DNA from: Azospirillum lipoferum 4B
GTDB taxonomy: Bacteria > Pseudomonadota > Alphaproteobacteria > Azospirillales > Azospirillaceae
Reading direction: 5' to 3'
NCBI RefSeq assembly: GCF_000283655.1
Contig: NC_016623.1
Coordinates: forward strand, 248,001-312,000
Length of the DNA stretch: 64,000 nucleotides
In this document: positions 45,141 through 61,800 of the stretch, piece by piece
Layout of the letters: each line of letters starts with the position of its first letter
Numbering within the stretch: the stretch's first letter is position 1
Position numbers and translations under genes: made by a program
The notes under the pieces: model-generated
The model's database searches: none
What the model was told of the DNA's origin: nothing
Seen by the model: only the letters and a program-made list of their open reading frames with translations

Positions 45141-46205
45141 TTACCGCTTCCCCACCGGCCGGGTGCTGCCGCGGATCACCAGTTCGCAGTCGAGATTGTG
45201 GTGCTGGGGCGCGATGCGGGCACCATCCAATGCCGCGAGAATCTGCGTCGCGCTGAGGCGGCCGATCTCGCGCTGGGGCGGACGGACGGTCGTCAGCGGC
45301 GGCGGGCAGGAGTTGCTGAAGGGAAGATCGCCGAAGCCGACCACCGCCAGATCCTCCGGCACCCGCAGGTCGCGGCGGGTCACCTCGAACAGAACGCCCA
45401 GCGCCAGCGCATCGTTGGAGCAGACCACGCCGTCGATGTCGGGGTGGCGCGTCAGGATCTCGTCGATCAGCCAGCGGCCGACCTCCGTCGTGGCGGCGTC
45501 GGGCACGGTGAAGTCGATGGGCTCGTGCAGGCCGCGCCGCAGAACCTCCGCATCATAACCGTCGGTGCGGCTTCGCACGCGCAGGTCCTGATGGGCGGCG
45601 GCGCCGATATAGGCGACCTTGCGGCTGCCCTGGTCATAGAGGTGGCTGGTCTGCATGCGGCCGACCTCGAAATGCGAGAAGCCGACGCTGATGCCGACCG
45701 CCTCACCCGGATGGGACGGCATGTCCCACATCTCCACCACCGGCACCCCGCAGGACGCCAGCATGGCTCGCGTCCGCTCGGTGTGGTGGAAGCCGGTCAC
45801 CACCATCGCCGCGGGCGACCAGGCGAGGAAGGCGCGGATCAGGCTTTCCTCCTCCTCCGGGCTGAACTCGCTGACGCCCAGCAGGGTCTGGTAATGCGCC
45901 GCCTGGAACATGCCCTGCAGCGTGTTGTAGGTCTCGGCAAAGAAGGAGTTCAGGATGGAGGGCAGGATGACGCCGACGGTGCGACTGCGCGCCGCGGCAA
46001 GGCTGCCGGCCACCAGATTGGGCACATAGCCCATCTCGTCGATGACGCGGGCGATCCGCTCGGCGAGATGGCGGGATACCGCCCCCGGGCGGCGGAGATA
46101 GAGCGACACGGTGCTGGGCGACACGTCGGCGGCGTTCGCCACGTCGGTCATGGTCACCCGTTGGGTGCCGCGGCGTGTCCGCTTCCTCGTTTCGGTCGTC
46201 TGCAT
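45141..46205 (-). CDS. LacI-family regulator
   Basis: A 354-residue regulator. The headpiece is VTMTDVANAADVSPSTVSLY followed by LRRPGAVSRHLAERIARVI, and the periplasmic-binding-like core has VGVILPSILNSFFAETYNTL and DGVVCSNDALALGVLFEVTR. It is the last gene of uxaB-small ORF-lacI on one strand, so it probably controls hexuronate use, with a pathway intermediate as ligand. Whether it binds the AT-only operators at uxaB and exuT is open, since typical LacI sites have a CG centre. Confidence 0.9.
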   Translation of the reverse strand: MQTTETRKRTRRGTQRVTMTDVANAADVSPSTVSLYLRRPGAVSRHLAERIARVIDEMGYVPNLVAGSLAAARSRTVGVILPSILNSFFAETYNTLQGMFQAAHYQTLLGVSEFSPEEEESLIRAFLAWSPAAMVVTGFHHTERTRAMLASCGVPVVEMWDMPSHPGEAVGISVGFSHFEVGRMQTSHLYDQGSRKVAYIGAAAHQDLRVRSRTDGYDAEVLRRGLHEPIDFTVPDAATTEVGRWLIDEILTRHPDIDGVVCSNDALALGVLFEVTRRDLRVPEDLAVVGFGDLPFSNSCPPPLTTVRPPQREIGRLSATQILAALDGARIAPQHHNLDCELVIRGSTRPVGKR

Positions 46206-46609: not shown

Positions 46610-48130
46610 TCAGCCGGCAACCAATTCCGCGCCAACCAGATCGGCCATGGCGGCCTTCATGCCCTTCGCCTCGATGGCGGCAAGGCTGTCGGCGACGCGG
46701 GCGGCCAGGCCGGGGATGGCGGTCAGGTCTTCCTTCCACAGCCGGACGTCCGACAGGATCGCCGCCACCAGCGCCGGCAGATCGCCGGCATTGGCAGCCC
46801 AGGCGGCGCTCATGGCGGCGATCACCTCGGCATTGTCGCTGATCGGGTAGGATCCCGCGTCGCGCTCGCCGGTGCAGGCGCCGTTGGCGAGCGTGCCGCG
46901 GTAAAAGCGCAGCAGCGCCGCCAGCGAGAAGGACAGGCCGGCCGGAGCCTGCCCGTTGCGGGCCACAGCATCCTTCAGGCTGGGCAGCACGCGCACCTGC
47001 CACTTCGACACCGAGTTGAGCGTGATGGAGATCAGCTCGTGCCGGATATAGGGGTTACCGAAGCGCTCCATGATGGTGCGGGCATAGTCCTGCCGCTCCG
47101 CCTCGGGCAGCGGCACATAGGGGACGATCTCCTCGAACATCACCGTGTTCAGATAGGCCGACACGGTGGGGTCGTCCATCATCGACTTGACGGTGTCGAG
47201 CCCGGCGCAATAGGCGGCCAGTGCGCTGGCGGTGTGGGCGCCGTTGAGGATGCGGACCTTGCGGGTGCGGTAGGGCTGCAGGTCGTCGGTCCAGACCACG
47301 TTCAGGCCGGCCTTGTGCAGCGGCAGTTCCTCGGCCAGATGGGCCGGCCCCTCGATCACCCAGACATGGAAGGGCTCGGCGGCGACGGCCAGCCGGTCCT
47401 CATAGCCCCATTTGGCGCTGAGCGCGGCGGCCTCGTCCTTCGGATAGCCGGGGACGATGCGGTCGACCAGCGTGTTCAGGAAATGGTTGTGCACCTCCAC
47501 CCAGTCAGCGAAGCCCGCCTCCAGGCCCCAACGCTTGGCATGGGCCAGCACGATGCGCTTCAGGTTGGCGCCGTTGGCCTCGATCAGCTCGCAGGGCAGG
47601 AAGACGAGACCGCTGTCGGCACTGCCGCCCAGCTCCTTGTAGCGGGCATGCAGCAGGGCCGCGACCTTGGCCGGGAAGCTGTCCTGGCAGGTGCCGGGGG
47701 TGTAGGGCTCCTCACGGTCGGCGATGCCGGCCTCCGTCGTGTTGGAAACGAAGAAGCGCAGAGCCGGCGAGCAGGCCAGCTCCACCATCCGCGCCCAGTC
47801 GGCATAAGGGTTCAGCGCCTCGGACACGCAGGAGACGGCGCGGCGGGATTCGACCTCTCGCCCGCCTTCGATGCCGCGCAGCAGCACCGTATAGAGGTTG
47901 TCCTGCGCTTTCAGCAGGTTGGCGATGCCCTGGTCGAGCGGCTGGGCGATGGCGACACCGGCCTTGCAGAGGCCCTGGCCGTTGGCGACATCGACCATCC
48001 AATCGACGAAACCGCGCAGGAAATTGCCATCGCCGACCTGAAGGATGGTCACGGGCAGGGTCGGCGCACCGCCGGTATGGGCGACGTCGAACGCGCCACC
48101 GGCAAGCTGGTCACGGGTCAGGGAACGCAT
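46610..48130 (-). CDS. uxaB: Tagaturonate reductase (mannitol-dehydrogenase family)
   Basis: A 506-residue NAD-dependent dehydrogenase. The family features are ILQVGDGNFLRGFVDWMVDV, FVSNTTEAGI, NTLVDRIVPGYPKDEA, RKVRILNGAHTASALAAYCA and GNPYIRHELISITLNSVSKW. Spacing and wording match E. coli UxaB (altronate oxidoreductase) better than UxuB or mannitol dehydrogenase. It reduces tagaturonate to altronate in galacturonate breakdown. A promoter with an AT-only operator lies about 70 bp upstream. Confidence 0.88.
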   Translation of the reverse strand: MRSLTRDQLAGGAFDVAHTGGAPTLPVTILQVGDGNFLRGFVDWMVDVANGQGLCKAGVAIAQPLDQGIANLLKAQDNLYTVLLRGIEGGREVESRRAVSCVSEALNPYADWARMVELACSPALRFFVSNTTEAGIADREEPYTPGTCQDSFPAKVAALLHARYKELGGSADSGLVFLPCELIEANGANLKRIVLAHAKRWGLEAGFADWVEVHNHFLNTLVDRIVPGYPKDEAAALSAKWGYEDRLAVAAEPFHVWVIEGPAHLAEELPLHKAGLNVVWTDDLQPYRTRKVRILNGAHTASALAAYCAGLDTVKSMMDDPTVSAYLNTVMFEEIVPYVPLPEAERQDYARTIMERFGNPYIRHELISITLNSVSKWQVRVLPSLKDAVARNGQAPAGLSFSLAALLRFYRGTLANGACTGERDAGSYPISDNAEVIAAMSAAWAANAGDLPALVAAILSDVRLWKEDLTAIPGLAARVADSLAAIEAKGMKAAMADLVGAELVAG

Positions 48131-48198: not shown

Positions 48199-48228
48199 AA
48201 TATACTAATATATTAATCTTGGGCGCAA
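48199..48228 (-). promoter_or_regulatory. uxaB promoter with operator A
   Basis: On the minus strand TTGCGC (48228-48223) and TATATT (48204-48199) are 18 bp apart. Between and over them lies operator A, ACTAATATATTAATCT on the plus strand (48204-48219), nearly identical to operators B and C. Binding there would block RNA polymerase. Confidence 0.55.
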
Positions 48229-48432: not shown

Positions 48433-51400
48433 CTACTCCTTGAACCCCGCCATATGTTCGAACAGGTGGCGCTTGCGGCGAATCTCCGCCTCGGCCTCGT
48501 CCAGCAGGGCGTGGTAGCGCTCGGGGTTGCTGCGCTCCACCGCGCTGAAACGCGACTCGCCGGCCATGAACGCCGCAAGGCCAGCGGAGGGGGCGCCGCT
48601 GTCCAACTGCAGGGCGGTCTTGCCGTCGGCGAGCCGGCGCGGGTCGCGGCGGTAGAGCGACCAGTGGCCGCTGTCCACCGCCAGCTTCTGATGTTCCAGC
48701 CCGTGCGACAGCTCGAAGCCATGGGCGACGCAATGGCTGTAGGCGAGGACCAGGGACGGACCGCGGTAGGCCTCCGCCTCCATCAGGGCGTTCAGCGTGT
48801 GGCTGTCGCGGGCACCGAAGGCGGTGCGGGCGACATAGACATGGTCGTAGGCCATTGCCATCAGGCCCAAATCCTTCTTGGCCGCCGACCGGCCGGCGGT
48901 GGCGAACTTGGCGGAGGCGCCGATCGGCGTCGCCTTCGACTGCTGGCCGCCGGTGTTGGAATAGACCTCCGTATCCATCACCAGGATGTTGACGTCGCGC
49001 CCCGACGCCAGCGCATGGTCGAGCCCGCCATAGCCGATGTCGTAGGCCCAGCCGTCGCCGCCGACGATCCACACCGTTTTGCGGACCAGATAGTCGGCCA
49101 ACTGCTCCAGCCGGCGGGCCAACGGGTCCTTCACCGCGGCGAGCTGCCCCATCAGGGCGGCGACACGGCCGCGCTGGGCGGCGATGCCGGCCGGGTCGGT
49201 CTGTTCGGCCTGCAGCAGCTCCGTCACCAAACCGGGTTCCAGCTGTGCGGACAGAAGCGCCAGCGTGTCGCGCGCCTGTTCGGCCATCTGGTCGATGGCG
49301 ACGCGCAGGCCGAGCCCGAACTCCGCATTGTCCTCGAACAGCGAGTTGGCCCAGGCCGGGCCGTGGCCGCTGGCATCGGTGGTGTAGGGCGTGGTCGGCA
49401 GGTTGCCGCCATAGATCGACGAGCAGCCGGTGGCATTCGCCATCACCATGCGGTCGCCGAACAGCTGGGTCAGCATCTTGATGTAGGGCGTCTCGCCACA
49501 GCCGGCACAGGCGCCGGAGAATTCGAACAGCGGCTCCAGCAGCTGGGTATGCTTGACGGTGGCCGGCACCGACTCGCGCGGGATGGCCGGCAGGCTGCGG
49601 AAGAAGTCGAAGGCCTCCTGCTCGCCGGCCAACGCCTGGATCGGACGCATTTCCAGCGCCTTGCGGCCGGAACCGCCCTTCTCATATGCGGGACAGACGG
49701 CGACGCAGAGGGTGCAGCCGGTACAGTCGGCCGGCGAGGCCTGCAGGCGATAGCGCCCGCCGGGGAACTCGCGGCCCTTGTAGGGGATGGTCTCGAAGCC
49801 GGCCGGCGCGTCGGCCAGGGCCGACTCCGGCACCACCGTGGCGCGGATGGCCGCGTGCGGGCAGACCAGCACGCATTTGTTGCATTCGATGCAGAGGTCC
49901 GCGTTCCAGCCCGGCGCCTCCGCCGCGATGCTGCGATGCTCATACTTGGAGGTGCCGGTCGGCCAGGTGCCGTCCACCGGGAAGGCGGAGACGGGCAGCC
50001 GGTCGCCATGGCCGGCGATCATCATGGCGGTGACGCGCTTGACGAAGTCGGGCGCCGTCTCCGGCACCGGGGCCGGGCGGTCGTGGTCGGCGGTGACGTG
50101 ATCGGGCACCGGCACGGCCCGGAGATGGGCGAGCGCCTGATCGACGGCGGCGATGTTGCGCTTAACCACCTCCTCGCCGCGGCGGGAGTAGGTCTTGACG
50201 ATGGCGGCCTTGATGTCGGCGATTGCGTCCTCGACCGGCATCACGCCCGACAGGGCGAAGAAGCAGGTCTGCATGATGGTGTTGACGCGGCGGCCGAGCC
50301 CGACCTCGCGCGCCACAGTGCCGGCGTCGATGGCATGGAGCGACAGCTTGCGTTCGATGCAGATGCGCTGCACCTCCGCCGGCAGGGCGTCCCACACCTG
50401 TTGCGGCGTGCCGGGGGCGTTCAGCAGCACGGTGGCGCCGGGGGCGGCCATCTCCACCACCTCCACCCGCTCCATCAGCGGCAGATGGTGGCAGGCGACG
50501 AATTGCGCTTGGCCGATCAGGTAGGGCGCGCGGATCGGATCCTTGGAAAAGCGCAGGTGCGACACGGTGGTGGAGCCGGATTTCCGGCTGTCATAGACGA
50601 AATAGGCCTGGGCGTGACTTCCGCTGTGCGCCTGGATGATCTTGATCGAGTTCTTGTTGGCGCCCACCGTGCCGTCGGCGCCGAGCCCGAAGAAGACCGC
50701 GCGGGAAACGCCCGGTTCCTCCATGCCCCAGGCCGGATCCCAGGGGATCGAGTGGTGGGTGACATCGTCGGTGATGCCGACGGTGAAACGGCGCTTCGGA
50801 CGGTCCCGCTTCAGCTCATCGAACACCGCCTTCGCCATCGCCGGGGTGAAATCCTTCGACGACAGGCCGTAGCGGCCGGCGATCACCATCGGCTCGGCAA
50901 GCGCCGGATCGGCGGCGCGGGATTCCGCCAGCGCGGCGACCACGTCGAGATAGAGCGGGTCGGCGACGGCGCCCGGTTCCTTGGTGCGGTCGAGCACGGC
51001 GATCCGCCGGACGCTTGGCGGCAGGGCCGAGACGAAGTCGGCGATGGCGAAGGGGCGGAACAGGCGGACGGTCAGGCAGCCGACCCGCTCCCCCTCCGCC
51101 ACCAGTCGGCTGACCGTTCCGGCGCAGGTCTCGGCACCGGAGCCCATGACCACCACCACCCGCTCCGCCTGCGGATGGCCGGCATAGTCGAACAGGCGAT
51201 AGGCGCGGCCGGTGCGCGTGGCCAGTTGGTCCATCATCTCCTGCACGATGGCCGGGCAGGCGTCGTAATAGGGGTTGGCAGCCTCGCGGGCCTGGAAGAA
51301 GACGTCCGGATTCTGCGCGGTGCCGCGGACCACCGGATGGTCCGGCGTCAGGCCGCGGCGGCGGTGGGCATCGACGCAGGCGTCGTCGATCAGCGCGCGC

Positions 51401-52038
51401 AGATCCTCGTCCGTCAGGGTCTCGACGCAATTGAACTCGTGCGAGGTGCGGAAGCCGTCGAAGAAATGCAGGAACGGCACCCGCGCCCGCAGGGTGGCGG
51501 CATGGGCGACCAGCGCCATGTCGTGCGCTTCCTGCACATCCGCCGAGGCCAGCATGGCGAAGCCGGTCTGCCGGCAGGCCATCACGTCGGAATGGTCGCC
51601 GAAGATCGACAGCGCGTGCGTTGCCAGCGTGCGGGCCGCCACATGCATGCAAAAGGGCGTCAGTTCCCCGGCGATCTTGTACATGTTGGGGATCATCAGC
51701 AGCAGGCCCTGCGACGCCGTGAAGGTCGTCGCCAGCGCGCCGGCCTGCAACGCGCCATGGACGGCGCCGGCCGCACCACCCTCCGACTGCATCTCCACCA
51801 CGTCGGGGACGCTTCCCCACAGGTTGGGACGGCGCGCCGCCGACCATTCGTCGGCGAACTCCCCCATCGGCGAGGACGGCGTGATGGGATAGATCGCGAT
51901 CACGTCGCTGGCGCGGTAGGCCACCGATGCCGCCGCCTCGTTGCCGTCCATGATCCGGGCGGAAGACGGGGCGGAGCGCGATGCGGCCTGGGTGGAAGCG
52001 GCCTCTGTGGAAGCGGTCGATGTCGGGGCCTGGGTCAT
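48433..52038 (-). CDS. nifJ: Pyruvate:ferredoxin/flavodoxin oxidoreductase
   Basis: A 1,201-residue single-chain PFOR. In order: the pyruvate-binding domain (AIYPITPSSPMGEFADEWSA), the CoA/gamma domain (GITDDVTHHSIPWDP), two 4Fe-4S sets (CIECNKCVLVCPHAAI; CTGCTLCVAVCP), and the TPP domain with ACAGCGETPY and VGGDGWAYDIGYGGLDHALA. It converts pyruvate and CoA to acetyl-CoA and CO2 while reducing ferredoxin or flavodoxin, the donor for nitrogenase in diazotrophs. I used the ATG at 52036-52038 with AAGGA upstream. A weak AT-only operator and an FNR-like box lie further upstream. Confidence 0.96.
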   Translation of the reverse strand: MTQAPTSTASTEAASTQAASRSAPSSARIMDGNEAAASVAYRASDVIAIYPITPSSPMGEFADEWSAARRPNLWGSVPDVVEMQSEGGAAGAVHGALQAGALATTFTASQGLLLMIPNMYKIAGELTPFCMHVAARTLATHALSIFGDHSDVMACRQTGFAMLASADVQEAHDMALVAHAATLRARVPFLHFFDGFRTSHEFNCVETLTDEDLRALIDDACVDAHRRRGLTPDHPVVRGTAQNPDVFFQAREAANPYYDACPAIVQEMMDQLATRTGRAYRLFDYAGHPQAERVVVVMGSGAETCAGTVSRLVAEGERVGCLTVRLFRPFAIADFVSALPPSVRRIAVLDRTKEPGAVADPLYLDVVAALAESRAADPALAEPMVIAGRYGLSSKDFTPAMAKAVFDELKRDRPKRRFTVGITDDVTHHSIPWDPAWGMEEPGVSRAVFFGLGADGTVGANKNSIKIIQAHSGSHAQAYFVYDSRKSGSTTVSHLRFSKDPIRAPYLIGQAQFVACHHLPLMERVEVVEMAAPGATVLLNAPGTPQQVWDALPAEVQRICIERKLSLHAIDAGTVAREVGLGRRVNTIMQTCFFALSGVMPVEDAIADIKAAIVKTYSRRGEEVVKRNIAAVDQALAHLRAVPVPDHVTADHDRPAPVPETAPDFVKRVTAMMIAGHGDRLPVSAFPVDGTWPTGTSKYEHRSIAAEAPGWNADLCIECNKCVLVCPHAAIRATVVPESALADAPAGFETIPYKGREFPGGRYRLQASPADCTGCTLCVAVCPAYEKGGSGRKALEMRPIQALAGEQEAFDFFRSLPAIPRESVPATVKHTQLLEPLFEFSGACAGCGETPYIKMLTQLFGDRMVMANATGCSSIYGGNLPTTPYTTDASGHGPAWANSLFEDNAEFGLGLRVAIDQMAEQARDTLALLSAQLEPGLVTELLQAEQTDPAGIAAQRGRVAALMGQLAAVKDPLARRLEQLADYLVRKTVWIVGGDGWAYDIGYGGLDHALASGRDVNILVMDTEVYSNTGGQQSKATPIGASAKFATAGRSAAKKDLGLMAMAYDHVYVARTAFGARDSHTLNALMEAEAYRGPSLVLAYSHCVAHGFELSHGLEHQKLAVDSGHWSLYRRDPRRLADGKTALQLDSGAPSAGLAAFMAGESRFSAVERSNPERYHALLDEAEAEIRRKRHLFEHMAGFKE

Positions 52039-52244
52039 GCCGGAAAAGTCCTTCTGCGTGGCGACGGTCGTCTCCGTGAGGCGTCTTTGATGCACTGGGC
52101 CGGCGGTGGCGGCAGCCGGCGGAAAACGCTGCAGGAAACGGCGGTCGACCTGGGAAAGGGTCTGCTGCCCGATGGAACGACGCAATGACGCGTGTCAGTC
52201 CGTCACGGATTTTCCGCCCGCCGCCGCTCTGCGCTGCACAACGG

Positions 52245-52260
52245 TCTGATATATTACTTT
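52245..52260. promoter_or_regulatory. Operator D, weak copy of the AT-only motif
   Basis: TCTGATATATTACTTT matches the consensus ACTAATATATTAATAT at 12 of 16 positions. It overlaps a possible minus-strand -10 (TAATAT, 52256-52251) with TTGAGA 15 bp upstream, which could drive nifJ. Tentative. Confidence 0.35.
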
Positions 52261-52383
52261 TGCAAGGAAGGTCTCAATTTGTCGCACCGCAACATGCGCC
52301 GCCGTCCAGGGGTGCTATGGGAAATCTCCGGTGCGGGCCCCCGAAGCCTGCAGTCCGCGCGGGCGCCAAGCGCGCACAGCCCA

Positions 52384-52397
52384 TTGATCTAGATCAT
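52384..52397. promoter_or_regulatory. FNR/FixK-type box
   Basis: TTGATCTAGATCAT differs from the TTGAT-N4-ATCAA consensus only at the last base. It lies between nifJ (about 350 bp away) and exuT, and more likely serves nifJ, an anaerobic gene. Confidence 0.55.
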
Positions 52398-52631
52398 TTA
52401 TCACCGCCGGCCGCCATGGCCATCCTACATGCGGATGAGGAAGACCGACGGTCCTTTCTCGGAAATCCGAACAGAAAGACCAGCCTTTCAACCCCTGGAA
52501 AAGTTGCATCGCAGCAAAGCAAAGGCCGTCGGCACCGGCCCCGATTATGCTGCAATTGCGAAGAAATCAGCGCACCGCACCATCAGCCTGCGACATTTTC
52601 GCTGAGGCCGCAGGCGGTCCGGGAAAACCAC

Positions 52632-52661
52632 TTGATGCCTTCACTGATATATTAATATAAC
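52632..52661 (+). promoter_or_regulatory. exuT promoter with operator B
   Basis: TTGATG (52632-52637) and TATAAC (52656-52661) are 18 bp apart. Operator B, ACTGATATATTAATAT (52643-52658), fills the spacer and overlaps the -10; its core TATATTAATATA is a perfect palindrome. Confidence 0.55.
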
Positions 52662-52817
52662 GCCTTCAACGCTGCTCCCGCCCTCTTGAAATCAAGCGGA
52701 AGCGTACCCGTCGCCCGGCACCGAACACCCGCTGGCAAGGCATCCCGGCCAAGGAAAGCCGTCCAGGGCCTGTACGTTGCGCACCGGCGCCTGCCGAAGC
52801 AGGCTTGTGAGGAAAAA

Positions 52818-54104
52818 ATGAAGAAGATCCGTGGTTTGCGGTGGCAAATCCTTGCCCTGATGATGCTCGGCACCGTGGTCAACTACATCGACCGCAACAC
52901 GCTGGGCATCCTGGCGCCGACGCTCAAGGAACAGCTCCATTTCACCACCGAGCAGTATTCCTTCATCGTCAGCGCCTTCCAGCTCTGCTACAGCCTGATG
53001 CAGCCGATTGCGGGTTACATCACCGACCTGATCGGCCTGAAGCTCGGCTACGCCATGTTCGCCTTCGTCTGGGGCACCGCGGCCGCCATGCATGCGCTGG
53101 CCGGCGGCTGGCAGTCGATGGCCTTCTTCCGCGGCCTGCTGGGCATCAGCGAGGCGGCCGCCATGCCGTCGGGCGTGAAGACTTCCACCCTGTGGTTCCC
53201 GGCCAAGGAACGTTCGATCGCCACCGGCTGGTTCAACACCGGCAGTTCGATCGGCGCGATGGTCGCCCCGCCCTTCGTCATCTGGCTGTCGCTGACCTAT
53301 GGCTGGCAGGAAGCCTTCCTCGTCACCGGCCTGCTCGGCATCGGCATGTCGGCCCTGTGGTTCATGCTGTACCGCAACCCCGAGAACCATCCGCGCCTGA
53401 CGAAGGAAGAGCACGCCTACATCCTGGAAGGCCAGGAGCATGTCGATCTGCCGAAGCCGTCGGTGAAGCGCGTGCTGGGCAAGGGCAAGTTCTGGAGCAT
53501 CGCCGCCGCCCGTTTCCTGACCGAGCCGGCGTGGCAGACCTTCAGCTTCTGGATCCCGCTGTACATGGTCACCACGCGTGGCATGGACATCAAGCAGTTC
53601 GCCCTGTTCGCCTGGCTGCCCTTCCTGTTCGGCGATCTCGGCTGCATCCTCAGCGGCTACCTGTCGCCCTTCTTCGTGAAGCGCTTCAGGATGTCCCTGG
53701 TCAACTCCCGCATCGCCGGCGTCGGCATCGGCGCGGTGTGCATGGTCGGCCCGGCCCTGATCGGCTTCTCCGCCAGCCCGATCACTGCCATCTTCCTGTT
53801 CTCGCTGGGCGCCTTCGCCCATCAGATGCTGTCGAGCCTGCTCTACGCCCTGGTCACGGACACCTTCGAAAAGCAGGACGTCGCCACGGCGACCGGCTTC
53901 GGCGGCATGGCCGGCTACATGGGCGGCATGATCTTCTCGCTGATCATCGGCCAGCTCGCCACCACCATCGGGTACGAGCCGCTGTTCGCCTGCCTGACCG
54001 TGTTCGACCTGACCGCCTTCGTGATCGTCGCCCTGGTCCTGGGCGAGCGCGGCAAGAACGCCGCCCCATCGGTCCCGAGCCCCGCCACCGGCACGGCGGA
54101 CTGA
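52818..54104 (+). CDS. exuT: MFS hexuronate transporter (ExuT type)
   Basis: A 428-residue 12-span MFS protein. The anion:cation symporter signatures are TVVNYIDRNTLGILAPTLKE, LGISEAAAMPSGVKTSTLWF and PAKERSIATGWFNTGSSIGA. The ExuT/GudP group imports galacturonate, glucuronate or aldarates with protons. GAGGA stands 5 nt before the ATG. It shares an operator with uxaB, which fits galacturonate or tagaturonate as substrate. The terminator at 54131-54158 closes the unit. Confidence 0.9.
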   Translation: MKKIRGLRWQILALMMLGTVVNYIDRNTLGILAPTLKEQLHFTTEQYSFIVSAFQLCYSLMQPIAGYITDLIGLKLGYAMFAFVWGTAAAMHALAGGWQSMAFFRGLLGISEAAAMPSGVKTSTLWFPAKERSIATGWFNTGSSIGAMVAPPFVIWLSLTYGWQEAFLVTGLLGIGMSALWFMLYRNPENHPRLTKEEHAYILEGQEHVDLPKPSVKRVLGKGKFWSIAAARFLTEPAWQTFSFWIPLYMVTTRGMDIKQFALFAWLPFLFGDLGCILSGYLSPFFVKRFRMSLVNSRIAGVGIGAVCMVGPALIGFSASPITAIFLFSLGAFAHQMLSSLLYALVTDTFEKQDVATATGFGGMAGYMGGMIFSLIIGQLATTIGYEPLFACLTVFDLTAFVIVALVLGERGKNAAPSVPSPATGTAD

Positions 54105-54130
54105 GCATCCGGCGGTTCCGCGATCCGAAA

Positions 54131-54164
54131 CGCCCTCCGGCCCGGAAGCCGGGGGGCGCTTTTC
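54131..54164 (+). terminator. Rho-independent terminator of exuT
   Basis: An 11-bp stem (54131-54141 with 54148-54158, one G-T pair) is followed by CTTTTCG, 26 bp after exuT. Confidence 0.85.
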
Positions 54165-54221
54165 GTTTGCGCCCCGGTCGAGCGGCAGCTGCACAAAAAA
54201 CCAACCGGTTGCCGAACATGC

Positions 54222-54253
54222 TTGCCAAGCGAATGAGATATTAATATATTAGT
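54222..54253 (+). promoter_or_regulatory. Orphan promoter with operator C
   Basis: TTGCCA (54222-54227) and TATATT (54245-54250) are separated by exactly 17 bp. Operator C, ATATTAATATATTAGT (54238-54253), overlaps the -10. The reverse complement of C differs from operators A and B at just one position each. No protein-coding gene follows. Confidence 0.6.
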
Positions 54254-54256
54254 CTT

Positions 54257-54352
54257 CGTACCGCTGGATGCGCCGTGGTCTGATCGCGGCACAACTTGTT
54301 GGACGTTCCTCTCGGACTTCAGAGCCGCCGGTTTCCCGACGGCTCTTTTTTT
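54257..54352 (+). ncRNA. Candidate regulatory small RNA (about 96 nt)
   Basis: The predicted start lies just after operator C, and the unit ends in a strong terminator (7-bp outer stem AGAGCCG/CGGCTCT, inner 3-bp stem, T7). No frame with a ribosome-binding site lies inside; the only in-frame ATG (54268) lacks a Shine-Dalgarno site and reads through the terminator stem. exuT has its own terminator upstream, so this is a separate unit. It would be switched together with uxaB and exuT. Its targets are unknown. Confidence 0.5.
54321..54352 (+). terminator. Rho-independent terminator of the candidate small RNA
   Basis: AGAGCCG (54321-54327) pairs with CGGCTCT (54340-54346), with an inner CGG/CCG stem and a 4-nt loop, followed by seven T. 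Oriented rightward. Confidence 0.88.
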
Positions 54353-54395
54353 GCCCGCTCTACGGCGGGAGAAGCGACATTCGGACGGCGGTGGC

Positions 54396-55082
54396 TCAGC
54401 GACGCCCGCCGACCTCGTCCAGATGCGTCAGCATGTCGGCCGGATCCTCGTAGACGCGCAGGGCGCCGGATCGTTCCAGCTCCTCCCGGCCATAGCCGCC
54501 CGACAGCAGGCCGATGCCGAGCGCACGCGCACGCTTGGCCGCGATCATGTCCCATATGCTGTCGCCGACGACGAAGGCGCTCGCGATGTCCACGCCGATT
54601 CGGGCGGCGGCGGCCAGGAACAGGTCCGGATCCGGCTTGGCATATTGGACCTCGTCACGGGTCACCACCGCGGCGCGGCCGGGATCGACACCCAGCTTTT
54701 CCAGCGCGGGCCTCGCGGTCTCCATCCGTCCGCTGGTGGCGATCGCCCAGGGGATGCCCATGCCGGTCAGCGCGTCCAGCAGGTCCCGCGCGCCGGGAAG
54801 CGGCACGACTCCGGCGGCCAGCCGTTTGTAAGCGTCCGCATGGCGCCGCCGCAGCCGGTCGAGAAGATCCTGGTCGATGGCAAGCCCGGTCTCGCGCAGC
54901 AGCATGTTGGTGAACAGCCCGCCGCTCATGCCGATCTTGCGGTGGATGCGCCACACCGACAGCGCGATGCCCTCCTCGTCCAGGGCCTCCCTCCAGGCCA
55001 GCACATGCTGATACACGGTGTCCGTCAGCGTCCCGTCCAGGTCGAACAGGAAGGCGTTGGTCATGTGGGGAAAACTGGTCAT
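54396..55082 (-). CDS. HAD-superfamily phosphatase (phosphoglycolate/beta-phosphoglucomutase-like)
   Basis: About 228 residues. The HAD motifs are FLFDLDGTLTDT (I), IPWAIATSGRM (II), KPDPDLFLAAAARI (III) and FVVGDSIWDMIAAKRA (IV), with a helical cap carrying HVLAWREALDEEG. It is a cytoplasmic sugar-phosphate or phosphoglycolate-type phosphatase. Starts at 55097, 55082 and 55064 are possible; 55082 has AGAGGG close by. It is convergent with exuT and the candidate small RNA. The substrate is not readable. Confidence 0.9.
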   Translation of the reverse strand: MTSFPHMTNAFLFDLDGTLTDTVYQHVLAWREALDEEGIALSVWRIHRKIGMSGGLFTNMLLRETGLAIDQDLLDRLRRRHADAYKRLAAGVVPLPGARDLLDALTGMGIPWAIATSGRMETARPALEKLGVDPGRAAVVTRDEVQYAKPDPDLFLAAAARIGVDIASAFVVGDSIWDMIAAKRARALGIGLLSGGYGREELERSGALRVYEDPADMLTHLDEVGGRR

Positions 55083-55351
55083 GTCCCTCTGGTCCATCGG
55101 TTGGCTGGGCAAGATCGCCGAAGCCGGCATGCCCGACAGGAACAGACGTGGGGGCGACAGCCACGCTTCGCCAAAGAATTGCGACCGGTCGCAATGGATT
55201 TTCCTCACAGATAATCCGGGCGAACTTCACCACCCCTTGCACTACGCCTGCGCGAATACGGCCGCTTCCGCTGGCGGGTTGACTCCGATACAGTCCCCGG
55301 CAAAGCTCGCGACCGGCCGATTCGGCGTGGTGCTGGAAGTGGGAGACGTGC

Positions 55352-55831
55352 GTGTTGGAAACGCCACGGGGCGACGGGTGGACTGCCGACGATGATCTGG
55401 TCACTCTGCTGGATCATGTCAGCAGGCTTGTCTATGGCATCGGTTTCGCCGACGGGCTTTTCCCGGCGCAGTGGGTGGCGTTGCGCTATTTCCACGACTC
55501 GCCGGAACCGGCACGGACCCTGACGGCGCTGGCCCGGTTCCAGCGGATCCACCTCGCCCCGGTTTCGCGCACCGTCTCCACCCTGGTGGACAAGGGGCTG
55601 CTCGCCCGCCGACCGCATCCGGGTTTCAAGCGCGGCTGGCTGTTCGACCTGACCGAGGAGGGCCGGGCGCTGCTCGACCGCGACCCGCTGCGCCACTCGC
55701 TGGGTCCGCCCATCGCCGGACTGGCGGAGGACGAGCGGGCGATGCTGGGCCGCCTGATGAAGCGGATCATCGCCCACATGCAGGCAGAGCCCGAGGCGGA
55801 AGGCAGGGCGGAGCGCCCGCCGGTCGCCTGA
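55352..55831 (+). CDS. MarR-family regulator
   Basis: A 159-residue winged-helix protein starting at GTG after GGGAG. LVYGIGFADGLFPAQWVALR, LAPVSRTVSTLVDKGLLARR and FDLTEEGRALL give the MarR layout: N-terminal helix, recognition helix and wing. Unlike common MarR proteins it keeps an unusual HPGFKRGWLF wing. It ends 43 bp from the convergent giant adhesin gene. Likely target: its own promoter or a nearby transporter; none is evident. Confidence 0.82.
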   Translation: MLETPRGDGWTADDDLVTLLDHVSRLVYGIGFADGLFPAQWVALRYFHDSPEPARTLTALARFQRIHLAPVSRTVSTLVDKGLLARRPHPGFKRGWLFDLTEEGRALLDRDPLRHSLGPPIAGLAEDERAMLGRLMKRIIAHMQAEPEAEGRAERPPVA

Positions 55832-55874
55832 GGCGACGGACGCGCCGACCGTCCGCACCCGCCGCACCGCTGCT

Positions 55875-58800
55875 TCAGTAGGTCAGCCTTTCGATGTTCT
55901 GCAGAACCAGCTGGTGATGGTTCTGGTCCTCCAGCGTGACCGTCGTGTCGGTGTTGAAGGTCAGCCCATGGCCCGAGGGGTCGACGGTGTAGGCAATCCC
56001 TTGGGCGTCGAGCTGCTGCAGCCAGTTGCCGCCGACATTGGCGACGAAGGCGCCGACCTCGACCACATCGGTCCAGCCAACGCCGACGCCGCCGTCGATG
56101 GTCAGATCGCCGTTGCGCGGCGCGAAGATGAACAGGTCGTCGCCATCGCCGCCCGACATGCCGGTCGTGGCGCTGCCGGCATGGAGGATGTCGGCGCCCG
56201 CGCTTCCGGTCATCGTAGTATCGCCCGAAACCAGCACCTCCAGCGCCATCGGGTCGCTGGACAGCCCCTGGCCGTCGCTGACCGTCACCTCCAGCGTCCG
56301 CGCGCCGGTGCCGCCGGGTGTCAGGGCGAGATGGCGGAGGATGTCGGTGTAGGTGGCGGTCGAGGCGTTTCCGGCCAGTGACAGCTGGTGGGTGGCGTCG
56401 TTCCAGCTGACCTCGATTCCCGTGCCGGACAGGGTCCTGTGGCCGGTGGCCGGATCGGTGTCGATGGTCAGGCCGGCCAGATCGAGCGTGTCGCCGGTCT
56501 GCGAGCCGGCCGCGATGCGGATCGACATGCCGGACATGACGCTGTTGTCCACGTCGGCGACCGTCGCATCGGCGGCCACCGCCGGATGACTGGCGGCATC
56601 GGCGGCGATGACGGTGGTGGCGTGGCCGGCGGTCAGGGTCGGCTTGTCGTTCACCGGATCGACCGTCACCGTCACGGTCCGCGTCACCGCGGCACTGTCG
56701 GCCCCGTCCCGGGCGGTCGCCGTGACCGACAGGGTGACCGGTCCGGCCGCGTCGGTCGGCGGGGTGTAGGTCAGGCCCGCCAACTGCGCGGTGGTGAGGG
56801 TCCAGCTGCCGTCGGCATTGTGGGTGCCGTGGTTCAGGCTGGCGCCCGCGGGCATGCCGGCGATCCGCACGCCAACCGTCTCCGACCCGTCGGTGTCGGT
56901 GGAGGCTGCGGTGATCGTCAATGCAATCGCCGTATCCTCATGCCCATTGACAGCCGAGACCACGGTCAGGTCGGGGGTGTCGGCCATCGGGGTCACCGTC
57001 ACCGCCAGCGTGCCGGAGGTGGTCGCCGCCGCCGCGCTGCCGTCCGTCGACATGGCGGTGACGGACAGGGTGAAGCTGGTGCCGCTGTCGGGCGCCGGCC
57101 TGATCGCCAGCCCGGCCAGCTGGTCCGGCGTCAGCGTGATCGACCCGTTGGACGGGGTCAGCGTGTCCCCGGCCGTGTTGGTCAGGGTGGCTCCGGCCGG
57201 GATGTCCTTGACGGTGACGGTGAGCGTCTCCGAAAGGTCGGTCAGCGCCGGAGCGATGGACAGCGGGATCGTCCCGTCCTCCACCCCCGTGGCGGGCAGC
57301 AGAGCCAGGGTCGGCGCATCGGAGACGGCGGTCACCGTGACCGGCAGTTGCGCCACGATGGAGGCCGGCGCGGCGCTGCCATCCGTGGAAGTGGCGGTTA
57401 CGGTCAGGGTGAAGTCGCCGTCGTCGTTCGGCGGCGGCTTGATCGCCAGACCGGAGAGCTGCGCCGCGGTCAGGGTGACGCTGCCGTTGACGACCGTCAG
57501 CGTGCCGTTGGCGGTGTTGGTCAGCTGCGCACCGGCGGGGATGCCGCTGACGGTGATGCTCAGCGTTTCCGAACCGTCGGTCAGGGCGGCGTCGATGGTC
57601 AGCGGGATCGCCGCATCCTCGTTGCCCGAGGCGGCGGCCACGGTCAGGGTCGGCGTGTCGGACAGCGGGTCGACCGTTACGGACAGCGTCTTGCTCACCT
57701 GAACCGCAGTGGCGCCGCCATCCTTGGCGGTGGCCTTGACGGTCAGGGTGAAGTCGCTGTCGCTGTTCGACGGCGGCTTGATCGCCAGACCGGCAAGCTG
57801 TCCCGGATTGAGCGTGATGCTGCCGCCACCGATGGTCAGAGTGTCGCCGGCGGTGTTGGTCAGGCTTGCACCGCTGGGGATGCCACTGATGGTGATCGTC
57901 AGCGTTTCCGACCCGTCGGTGTCGCCCAGCAGTGCGCTGATCGACATCGGGATCCGGGCATCCTCGTCCCCGGTCGCGGGCAGAACATCCAGGGTCGGGG
58001 TGTCGGTCACCGGCGCGACGGTGACCGGCAGCTGCGCGCTGGTGCTGACCGGAGTTGCGGTTCCATCGGCGGCGGTGGCAGTGACGGTCAGGGTGAAATC
58101 ATCGTCCTTGTCGGGGGGCGGGGTGATCGCCAGACCGGCAAGCTGGCCGGGGTTCAGGGTGATGCTGCCGCCGGTGATGGTCAGAGCCTCTCCCGCGCTG
58201 TTGGTCAGGGTGGCGCCGCCGGGAATGCCGCTGATGGTGATGCTCAGCGTCTCCGATCCGTCGGTGTCGGTCAGCGCCGGGTTGATCGTCAGCGCAATCG
58301 CCGAGTCCTCGTTTCCGCTGGCGGCGGTGACGGTCAGGGTCGGGGTATCGGACGCCGCGTTCAGCGTGATCGGCACGGCCACCACCTTCGTCGCGGTGCT
58401 GCCGTTGGATTCGATGCTGACGGCGGTGACGGTCAGCGTGAAGTCCACGTCGCTGTTGGCCGGCGGGGTCAGCGACAGGCCGTTCAACTGGGCCGGCGTC
58501 AGGGTCCAGCTGCCGTCGCCGTTGCGGGTGCCGGCCGACAGCAGCGCGCCGGCCGGCACGCCGGCGATGGTCACCAGCCCCAGGCGCTCCGATCCGTCGA
58601 TATCGGATAGGGCGACCGACAGGTTCAGCGGCAGGACGGTGTCCTCCGTCCCGGTCAATGCGCCCGCGGTGACGATGGGCTGGTCGGCGGCCGGATCGAC
58701 GCTGACGCGGAACAGCTGGCTGGTGGTGGCGGTGACGCCGGTCGACTGCTCCTTCGTCGTCGCGGTCAGGGTCAGGTTGAAGTCGGTGCCGCTGTCGGCG

Positions 58801-61800
58801 GGCGGCAGCAGCTTCAGCCCGCTCAGCTGCGCCGCGGTCAGGTCGACCGCGCCGGCGGTGGGCGTCAGCCTGTTGCCGTTCGCATCGATCAGCACCGCGC
58901 CGGCGGGGAGGCCGGACAGGACGATGGCCATCGTCTCCGACCCGTCGGTATCGACCAGGGACGCCCTCAGGTTCAGCACGATTTCCGTGTCCTCGTCGCC
59001 CGAGGCATTGGCGACGATGACGGTGGGCGCGTCGGTCACCGCCGTGACGTCGACATGAATGGTGGCGGTGGTGGTGGCGGTGCTCTTGTTGGAGCTTTCC
59101 AGGCTGGTGGCGGTCAGAGTCAGGTCCATGCCGCCGGAATAGTTGCGCGGCGGCGTGACGGTCAGGCCGGACAGTTCCGACGGCTTCAGCGTCCAGGACC
59201 CGTCGCCGTTGTTGGAGCCCTTGTTCAGCACCGCGCCATCGGGCAAGCCGGACAGGATGACCGCCATCGTCTCCGACCCGTCGGTATCCATGAGGTTGGC
59301 CGACAGGTTCAGGGCAATGGCGGTGTCCTCCGCCCCCGTCGTGTTCTGGACGGTGACGTTCGGCGCGTCGGCGACGGCGGTGTAGGTCACGTTGAGGGTC
59401 TTGGACGACCAGGCCTCCGCCGCCGCGCCGTCCTTGGCGGCAGCATCGACGGTCAGCGTCACCGTGCCGGCGAAGTTGGCCGGCGGCGTCAGGGTCAGGG
59501 CGGAACGCTGCGCCGGTGTCAGGCCGGACAGGTCGTAGACGCCGTTGCCGAGCGACGTGCCCGCCGAAAGGGTGAAGCCGGCCGGAACCGTCACCCTGAG
59601 CGCGGTGATCGCCTCGCCGCCGCCGACCAGATCGGTGACCGCGGCGGAGATCGACAGGCTGGCGGCGTGGTCCTCCTGCACTGTGACCGAACTCGCGGAG
59701 ATGGACGGGGCGTCGCTGACCGGCGCCACATCGACGGTCAGGGTCCTGGTCGCAGTCGCACGGTCGGCGTTGCTCGTTTCCCGCGCGACGGCGGTCACGC
59801 TCAGCTGGTAGGTGCCGCTCGCGTCGGCCGGCGGGGTGAATTTCAGCCCGGCAAGCTGGTTGGGTGTCAGCACCCAGCGTCCGGTGGTGGAATCCAGATA
59901 TCCGGCCGACAGCGTGGCGCCGGCCGGCAGCCCTTCGATGACGACGCTGGCCAGGATTTCCGAGCCGTCGGTGTCGTCCAGCGCAGCGGCGATGTTCAGC
60001 GCGATGGCCGTGTCCTCGTTGCCGGTGGCCGGCTGCACGGTCAACAGCGGGCTGTCGGCGACGGCGGTGACGGTCACGTCCTGCGTCAGCGTGGTGTGGG
60101 CGTTGCTGCTGCCCGACGTCACATCGAGGGTGATCCTGAAATCGGCATCGCTGTTGGCTGGCGGCTTCAACGTCAGGCCGGCCAGCTGCGCCTTGGTCAG
60201 CGTGATGGAGCCGCCGGTGATGGTCAGCGTGTCACCGGCCGTATTGGTCAGGCTGGCCCCTGCCGGGATGCCGGACAGGGTGACGGCGGTCACAGTCTGC
60301 CAGTTTGCCAGACCGGCCTCGATGCCCAGGGCGACCGCCGAATCCTCGGCGGTGGTCACGGCGGCCGGCCGGTCGCTGCCGACGCTGGGGTCCAGTGGTG
60401 GCGGGGGCGGGGGCGGCGGGGGCGGCGGAGGGCTGGTGCCGCCGCCGTTGTTCCCGCCGTTCGAACCGCCCGGATCGGTCGAGCCGCCGCCGTTGGAACC
60501 GGTCGAGGTGGTCCAGCTCAGCACGAAGCTGTCGGACACGCTGGTGTTGCGGTCGCCCTCGCTTTCGATGCTGTAGGGTTTGACCGTCAGCGTCACGCTG
60601 GCCGTGTCGATGTTGGTGCCGGAATCGACGCTGTGGGCGATGCCGGCGGCATTGACATCCTTGACGGTCAGCTTCAATCCGCCTTCGGCCAGCGCCGCGG
60701 CATAATCGTCCGCGGTCAGCGTCCAGGTGCCGTTGCCGTTGTCGAGGCCGCGTGACAGCACCGTGCCCTTCGGAACGCCGGAGATGGTGACCGCCAGCTT
60801 TTCCGACCCGTCCGTATCCTGTAGGAAGGCGTTCAGGTTCAGCACGAGATCGGTCGGCACGGCCCCCGTCACCGTATGGTCGTCGACATGGTAGGGCACC
60901 GCCGATCCGTCGGCCGCATGCGACACCGGCGCGTCGGCCACCGCTGTGACGACGACCTTCGGGGCGTAGGTCCTGGTCAGGCTGTCGGTGCCGTCGACCA
61001 CCGTCACCGTCACGGTGATGGTGAAGTCGTCGGCAGTGTTGGCCGGCACGATCAGCCGCAGGTTGCCGAGCTTGGCCGGATCGACGGTCCAGCTGCCGTC
61101 GGCATTGGCGGTCAGCGCGCCGGCATCCGTGCTGGTCAGCGTCGCCCAGGCCGGCAAGCCGGAGATGACGATGGCGGAGATATGCTCCGAATTGTCCACG
61201 TCGCTGGTGAGCGCCGAGATGCTCAGGGGAATGCCGCCGACGGCGTCCTCCTGCGCGCTGGCGCCGATGGAGACCCGCGGCTCGTCCGCCTTGGGATCGA
61301 CGGTGACGATCAGGTCGCGGGTGTCCTTCAACACCCCGCCGGAGGTCACGCCATTCACCGTGACGATCGGCGCGCCGTTGCTGTCGGTGGTGATGACATC
61401 CACCTTCAGCGACACGGTGCCGGCGAAGTCCTTCTTCGTGGTCAGGGTCAGCTCGTCGCGATAGGCGACATCCACCGACCAGCGGCCGTTGCCGAGATAG
61501 ACCAGCCCGCTCTCGTGCCCAGCCGCCAGCGACAGCCAGGAATCCGCCGGCAGGTTGCTGACGACCAGCGACAGCCGCTCCGACCCGTCATCGTCCAGCA
61601 TCACCAGATCGCCGAGGCGCAGGTTGATCGCCGTGTCCTCGCTGCCGCGGGCGCTGAGCGCGCCGTTCGGCGTGACGGCGTCGGCGACGCCCTGCACCTC
61701 GACATGGACGGTCACCGCGGCGGCATCGGCGACGCTGCTGTTCGAGGATTCCGTCGCCCGGGCGGTGAAGGTCAGGTTGAAGCCGGTGTTGGAATTGGCC

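Follow-up and report, generated by a model that had tools for sequence, protein, structure and literature searches.

Behind the hexuronate transporter gene exuT of Azospirillum lipoferum 4B, a promoter, an operator, and a terminator lie together at 54222-54352 of the window (the whole stretch of DNA analyzed here, 64,000 nucleotides). Do they make up a gene of their own, and if so, what would control it and what would it act on? Our reading, drawn from sequence comparisons, is that 54222-54352 is probably a small RNA gene in its own right within the hexuronate regulon, controlled by a GntR/FCD protein and with an alphaR8-like mode of pairing. The features that this reading involves are as follows.

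46610-48130, minus strand: uxaB, tagaturonate reductase (603 bits, cut-off 359)
48201-48220, no strand assigned: two overlapping operator copies 5' of uxaB (operator scan)
52644-52659, no strand assigned: exuT operator, upstream of exuT (operator scan)
52818-54104, plus strand: exuT, hexuronate transporter-like MFS protein (48.7% identity to annotated E. coli ExuT)
54222-54227, plus strand: -35 hexamer TTGCCA (promoter scan and alignment)
54237-54252, no strand assigned: AT-only operator GATATTAATATATTAG, overlapping the spacer and the -10 hexamer
54245-54250, plus strand: -10 hexamer TATATT, inside the operator, with a 17-nt spacer to the -35 hexamer
54257-54352, plus strand: predicted small RNA of ~96 nt (the -10 box gives its inferred start, the T run its end)
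54257-54305, plus strand: long imperfect 5' hairpin of the RNA, predicted in 17 of 17 sequences
54304-54319, plus strand: linker CGTTCCTCTCGGACTT, anti-Shine-Dalgarno-like, aligning with the linker of alphaR8 RNAs, invariant in 17 sequences save one C/T change in the divergent copy of genome G056
54321-54352, plus strand: intrinsic terminator, a G+C-rich stem at 54321-54346 and then T7 at 54346-54352

The original prediction described a promoter with 17-bp spacing, an AT-only operator common to uxaB and exuT, a terminator with T7 about 96 bp downstream, and a separate terminator for exuT at 54131. Each of these elements was recovered. TTGCCA, 17 nt, and TATATT are present, though the promoter match on its own is no more than chance (one promoter-like site in 50000-57500, the one at 54222, versus 0.8 ± 1.0 expected). 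The operator has four matches in the window at up to three mismatches versus none in 100 shuffles. The terminator consists of the stem at 54321-54346 and the T7 at 54346-54352; one C·A mismatch in the stem is probably why a simple terminator scan omits it. exuT has its own terminator at 54131-54158. What lifts the unit above chance is its conservation.

Two further observations concern the flanks. The operator copies at uxaB overlap in opposite orientation; overlapping copies at uxaB are also found in G001 and G025, and overlapping copies occur in G012 as well. On the far side of the unit, 55875-63995 of the minus strand is taken up by an open frame of great length, made of repeats and counting 2706 codons inside the window, and the gene at this position is annotated as an Ig-like domain protein in three relatives.

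Conservation and fold of the predicted RNA

Of the 41 genomes searched by blastn with 54100-54400, 11 had a match, each of them one of the 25 in that set that belong to the same genus, and the block common to the matches spans ~54220-54357. R1, a covariance model of the transcript, recovered the RNA from 15 of the 45 Azospirillum genomes (best E ≤ 6e-15), twice in G056 and once in each of the others. The same model found it in none of the 37 genomes taken from 12 further genera of the family. Weak R1 matches in G043 and G053 (E of 0.004 to 0.009) were judged from their sequence to be canonical alphaR8 RNAs. Carriers include Azospirillum sp. B21, A. melinis, A. picis, two A. oryzae strains, A. 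lipoferum Sp59b, Azospirillum sp. TSH64, A. endophyticum, A. ramasamyi, another A. oryzae, and Azospirillum sp. B510; in A. ramasamyi, one A. oryzae, and sp. B510, the RNA lies on plasmid records of 0.67 to 0.69 Mb. The second G056 copy (L136, C3:575078-575178) is divergent and lies ~2.4 kb 3' of a second exuT copy; its palindromic promoter box, GGATACTAGTATCC, is a different one, and its 5' hairpin is stronger.

Identity to the window was 0.94 to 1.00 in the RNA body (14 genomes), 0.80 to 0.93 at third codon positions of exuT, 0.53 to 0.88 in the promoter/operator region, 0.51 to 0.80 between exuT and the promoter, and 0.33 to 0.68 after the terminator. GCTTGC at 54220-54225 was invariant in an alignment of 12 sequences, and 20 of the 21 positions of TTGGACGTTCCTCTYGGACTT were invariant in 17.

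The fold predicted for 54257-54352 has an energy of -37.6 kcal/mol (z of -2.5; 4 of 200 shuffles were equally good). All 17 sequences are predicted to form a long imperfect 5' hairpin, a linker with a mini-hairpin of at most 3 to 4 bp, and a terminator whose stem is followed by a T-rich tail, the T run being interrupted in several. Covariation support is thin because the sequence hardly varies: two-sided changes were found at 3 of 29 pairs overall, and two pairs of the terminator stem show such changes. As far as sequence can tell, the predicted RNA has the traits of a trans-acting small RNA, namely, a promoter and a terminator of its own, a noncoding body, and a conserved, nearly single-stranded seed.

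Resemblance to alphaR8 RNAs

The best Rfam match of the window RNA was suhB/mmgR (RF00519), at 26.9 bits, below the gathering cut-off of 41. The orthologue in G001 scored 30.9 bits (E of 5.4e-4 genome-wide), also below the cut-off, and was seventh of the 38 RF00519 matches listed there, five of which pass. Weak Rfam matches to BjrC1505, ncS54, and PrrF were taken as generic. In the reverse search, R1 matched 17 of 19 over-threshold alphaR8 loci at 15.7 to 30.8 bits, and of the other two, one reached 10.9 bits and one had no match; 15 of these loci (L022-L036), being the best copies of genomes related to one another, are not independent. Elsewhere in the 156,830 bases searched, the best chance match was 19.9 bits, at a terminator-like site in L046, and the remaining matches were at most 13.9 bits, leaving aside two suhB-like loci below the threshold, with 14.0 and 14.3 bits. 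Because a terminator-like site reached 19.9 bits, the resemblance to alphaR8 may partly be that of the terminator. RNAs of the alphaR8/suhB type are themselves widespread in the genus: all 45 Azospirillum genomes had at least one over the cut-off, with 4 to 16 matches each at E ≤ 0.001 (loci L022-L036 and L040-L043).

The alphaR8 RNAs, SisA-D of Caulobacter crescentus and MmgR of Sinorhizobium meliloti, share with the predicted RNA a 5' hairpin, an anti-Shine-Dalgarno C/U linker, and a terminator, and in both the linker is followed by RACUUCAGRGCCGC and then by the intrinsic terminator. As published, the traits of alphaR8 RNAs are a terminator and, below a hairpin, the sequence UUUCCUCCCU in single-stranded form (PMC12559287). 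The hairpin upstream of the linker and the Rho-independent terminator were found in every one of the 17 sequences, and the 10-mer UUUCCUCCCU in none; the linker core is GUUCCUCUCGG in 16 of them and GUUCCUCUUGG in one. We therefore describe the predicted RNA as alphaR8-like and do not file it as a family member, since a defining feature was looked for and was absent. Further differences from alphaR8 are the sub-threshold Rfam score, a longer 5' hairpin, and the uronate operator. By analogy, it most likely works like alphaR8 RNAs.

It is possible, if rather doubtful, that the RNA is after all a functional, low-scoring alphaR8 RNA that shares its targets with the other alphaR8 RNAs of the genome and differs from them only in its promoter. 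The scaffold is the same, the family is the best Rfam match, the two sets of sequences find each other weakly, and in the duplex screen described below, the canonical alphaR8 linker ranks the formate-dehydrogenase (fdh) operon second. According to PMC12559287, alphaR8 RNAs also occur in several copies per genome, and the Caulobacter siblings have unrelated promoters; MmgR itself is described as NtrC induced and AniA repressed (PMC7143759). However, the score misses the gathering threshold and the altered core is frozen in 17 sequences, which suggests a target set of its own. We therefore retain the reading of an alphaR8-like RNA with a changed seed.

Other known systems resemble the predicted RNA in part. 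AbcR (alpha-r15) has partial suhB similarity and an anti-Shine-Dalgarno motif in common with it; AbcR1 and AbcR2, at 120 and 114 nt, have two CU-rich motifs and three stem-loops (PMC7143759), in contrast to the single CU-rich motif and ~96 nt here. The small RNAs from the 3' end of E. coli uxuR are likewise linked to a hexuronate regulator gene but are intragenic and independent of the carbon source, a comparison made by description only (PMC10016265). Neither suhB nor galacturonate came up in a term search of an A. brasilense survey (PMC7685610). More broadly, the literature searched on Azospirillum small RNAs and suhB, galacturonate, and hexuronate small RNAs, with partial coverage especially of subscription journals, yielded no description of the RNA. 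A KdgR-controlled rsmB RNA of Pectobacterium was reportedly described by Hyytiainen in 2001. It is a noncoding RNA in a circuit whose repressor, KdgR, is of the IclR type and responds to pectin/uronate breakdown. RsmB binds the protein RsmA (PMC5442451), whereas the RNA here has a GntR-type operator and presumably pairs with mRNA.

The operator, its regulator, and exuT

At up to two mismatches, the operator pattern had 307 matches in 45 genomes (0 to 16 each, median of 7) versus 14 for a reversed control pattern. In the three genomes where sites were examined, they lay at uxaC with its divergent gntR, other gntR genes, uxaB, exuT, the RNA, a TRAP binding protein gene, pta, and galM, the last followed by a gene read as pyk from its N terminus. 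Being common to hexuronate and regulator genes, the predicted operator marks a hexuronate (GntR) regulon of uxaC, uxaB, exuT, TRAP binding protein, pta, and galM.

Homologs of the uxaC-linked GntR/FCD protein were counted in ten of the 45 genomes, overlapping duplicate sites being dropped (three in G001 and one in G012). Among the matches listed, 32 of 95 operators were within 1.2 kb of such a homolog, where stretches this close make up 0.18% of the sequence, and 32 of 42 homologs had an operator. The five genomes without an operator have zero to one distant GntR homolog each. Since operators track GntR/FCD genes and the central CG of LacI sites is absent, a GntR protein is the likely repressor; the probable regulator of the predicted operator is a GntR/FCD protein encoded elsewhere, not the adjoining LacI. 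As to which GntR paralog and which ligand take part, we infer both.

The neighboring LacI protein (45141-46205) resembles a gluconate-type regulator (320 bits, below the cut-off of 400). That this protein, and not GntR, controls the operator and the RNA is quite improbable. It lies in the same cluster and is kept together with the RNA in A. ramasamyi, but a central CG is found in 1173 of 1251 LacI factors with even palindromes (PMC4052901) and is absent from operators of the GATATTAATATATTAG type. Furthermore, operators adjoin GntR/FCD genes far above expectation and are missing from genomes with few GntR homologs.

The operator was also seen near genes whose ends read as those of pyk, gap, and acetate kinase; the pta product has a MaoC domain (the loci by pta, galM, and the central-metabolism genes are L106, L093, L098, L114, L115, and L103). 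Because of these positions, the predicted uronate regulon may reach central pyruvate/acetate metabolism.

The relation of the RNA to exuT was followed through 30 exuT loci in 27 of 45 genomes, found with a query two bases out of frame whose matches fall on exuT, so that the sensitivity is that of the shadow frame. An upstream operator (at most one mismatch) was present at 29 of the 30. A downstream operator, 130 to 195 bp behind exuT, was present at all 14 loci with an adjacent RNA and at none of the 16 without, the latter including the second exuT of G056, the RNA of which lies ~2.4 kb 3', beyond the flank examined. At one A. ramasamyi locus (NZ_CP029831.1, L037), exuT and uxaB are gone, and the RNA and operator are kept, together with pflB, pflA, the oxidoreductase, LacI, nifJ, and HAD genes; A. 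ramasamyi was absent among the eight Azospirillum plasmid records with an ExuT match. The whole genome of G015 had no exuT match at E ≤ 1e-100 with this shadow-frame query. G004, which by its position is A. thermophilum, has an exuT 90% identical and lacks the RNA; in G060 and G054 the RNA is missing and exuT found no match.

The original prediction had tied the small RNA to conservation of the segment in relatives, independent of exuT. The outcome is mixed and mainly in favor of a small RNA: in the clade to which the window belongs, segment and operator are conserved together, including at one locus that has no exuT, and more distant Azospirillum have the exuT operator without the RNA (16 of the 30 exuT loci). 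For the latter reason, the RNA appears to be a clade-specific addition.

Alternatively, the operator might be an auxiliary or decoy operator of exuT, acting by loop formation, and the terminator a leftover. Its position 130 to 195 bp behind exuT at 14 loci would fit such a role. We consider it very improbable nonetheless, because the transcribed body is more conserved than the promoter/operator region, the A. ramasamyi cassette survives without exuT, and exuT loci without an adjacent RNA have no downstream operator. That 54222-54352 encodes a small protein or leader peptide (61 codons from an ATG at 54268, kept in 16 of 17 aligned sequences) is hardly credible, as had been foreseen, since 10 of 17 sequences lack 1 nt in the apical loop, which puts the invariant linker 3' of it into another frame, and the terminator loops differ in length, so that no long reading frame is common to all.

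The co-regulation with hexuronate genes proposed originally is supported, on present sequence comparisons, by the conserved body, the downstream operator counts, and the retention in A. ramasamyi. The predicted RNA gene is very probably real, restricted to a clade, part of the hexuronate regulon, and alphaR8-like with a changed seed. Two amendments to the earlier reading are likely to be needed: a GntR/FCD regulator and an alphaR8-like scaffold.

Candidate targets and biological meaning

When the linker was scored for duplex energy with 23 start regions of the cluster and regulon, no signal emerged (z of -0.56 to 1.37); 4 of the 23 are void, since the position used was no true start codon (exuT, where it was off by two bases; HAD; L115; and a kdgF-like gene). 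The targets suggested earlier, pflB and nifJ, thus drew no support from these energies. The exact complement CCGAGAGGAAC occurred at 55 sites in the 15 carrier genomes, 15 of them the RNA itself; among the 40 others, all read, one site at a GTG start recurs in G010, G051, and G052, and another recurs in G005, G008, G017, G051, G052, and G055 and is taken, judging by low GC3, as lying inside an opposite-strand gene. A search for CGAGAGGA-N(3-10)-ATG in five genomes gave 112 sites, of which 30 were fetched, with ppdK, fdxB, flgG, and znuA as candidates (names read from translations). The same strings occur in RNA-less G060 (all four) and G054 (three of four) and are absent among the matches listed in five other RNA-less genomes (for G004, 24 of 29); because they track the clade, these candidates were rejected. 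A complement in the gntR leader was also set aside, being found only in G012, G015, and, with one mismatch, G001 among the 15 carriers. These simple seed searches found no site that separates carriers from noncarriers.

A duplex screen covered two syntenic 0.8-Mb pieces (~11 to 13% of each genome), with 260 of 318 ortholog pairs scored and mononucleotide shuffles of the 31-nt linker as decoys. The fdh operon came first of 50 operons (Stouffer z of -4.83; next, -1.50), a score equaled by 1 of 240 shuffled linkers. The best single-gene score, also in the fdh operon (z of -4.07), was reached by 28 of 240 decoys. In a first run with 60 shuffles, the top three genes by z all belonged to the fdh operon; with 240 shuffles this no longer applied to all three, and the operon was still first. 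We treat the result as a lead only, because the operon-level statistic was picked after the first run had been seen.

The predicted sites lie at the starts of the TorD-type chaperone gene, fdhA, and fdhC. All three are present in G001, G005, and G015, the G001 torD having been left out of one scoring; carrier G025 has the chaperone and fdhA sites and a different fdhC start, RNA-less G060 has all three, and the A. brasilense fdh operon examined (65% identical) lacks the fdhA site. The operon with its TorD-type chaperone gene spans C1:510930-516737 in G015. The A. ramasamyi plasmid NZ_CP029833.1 carries a second fdh operon, ~64% identical, in which a small gene with a twin-arginine signal is annotated before the alpha subunit gene. 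The fdh operon is a weakly supported best candidate target; it would fit, as pyruvate-formate-lyase genes are in the RNA's own cluster.

Taken together, the mechanism would run as follows. A GntR/FCD repressor, encoded by a gene beside uxaC or by paralogs, would bind the AT-only operator over the promoter and leave it once a hexuronate intermediate is present. RNA polymerase would then make the ~96-nt transcript, predicted from conserved structure to fold into the 5' hairpin, the nearly unpaired C/U-rich linker GUUCCUCUCGGACUU, and the terminator. As the alphaR8-like anatomy suggests, the linker would pair with Shine-Dalgarno regions of mRNAs, probably with Hfq, and lower their translation, making the RNA a uronate-responsive functional sibling of alphaR8 RNAs. 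An unlikely extension of this scheme is that such a uronate-inducible, re-seeded sibling under a catabolic repressor silences the fdh operon and thereby ties pectin-sugar sensing to formate metabolism. In this extension, silencing would act at the ribosome-binding sites of the TorD-type chaperone, the alpha subunit, and, in most species, the gamma subunit.

Azospirillum lives on plant roots, and pectin-derived uronates signal a plant surface. If the reading holds, a small RNA in the uronate regulon would connect the sugars of plant cell walls directly with post-transcriptional control, and Azospirillum, with suhB-type matches in each genome, would offer a testable case of a small RNA family that has diversified through new seeds and promoters.
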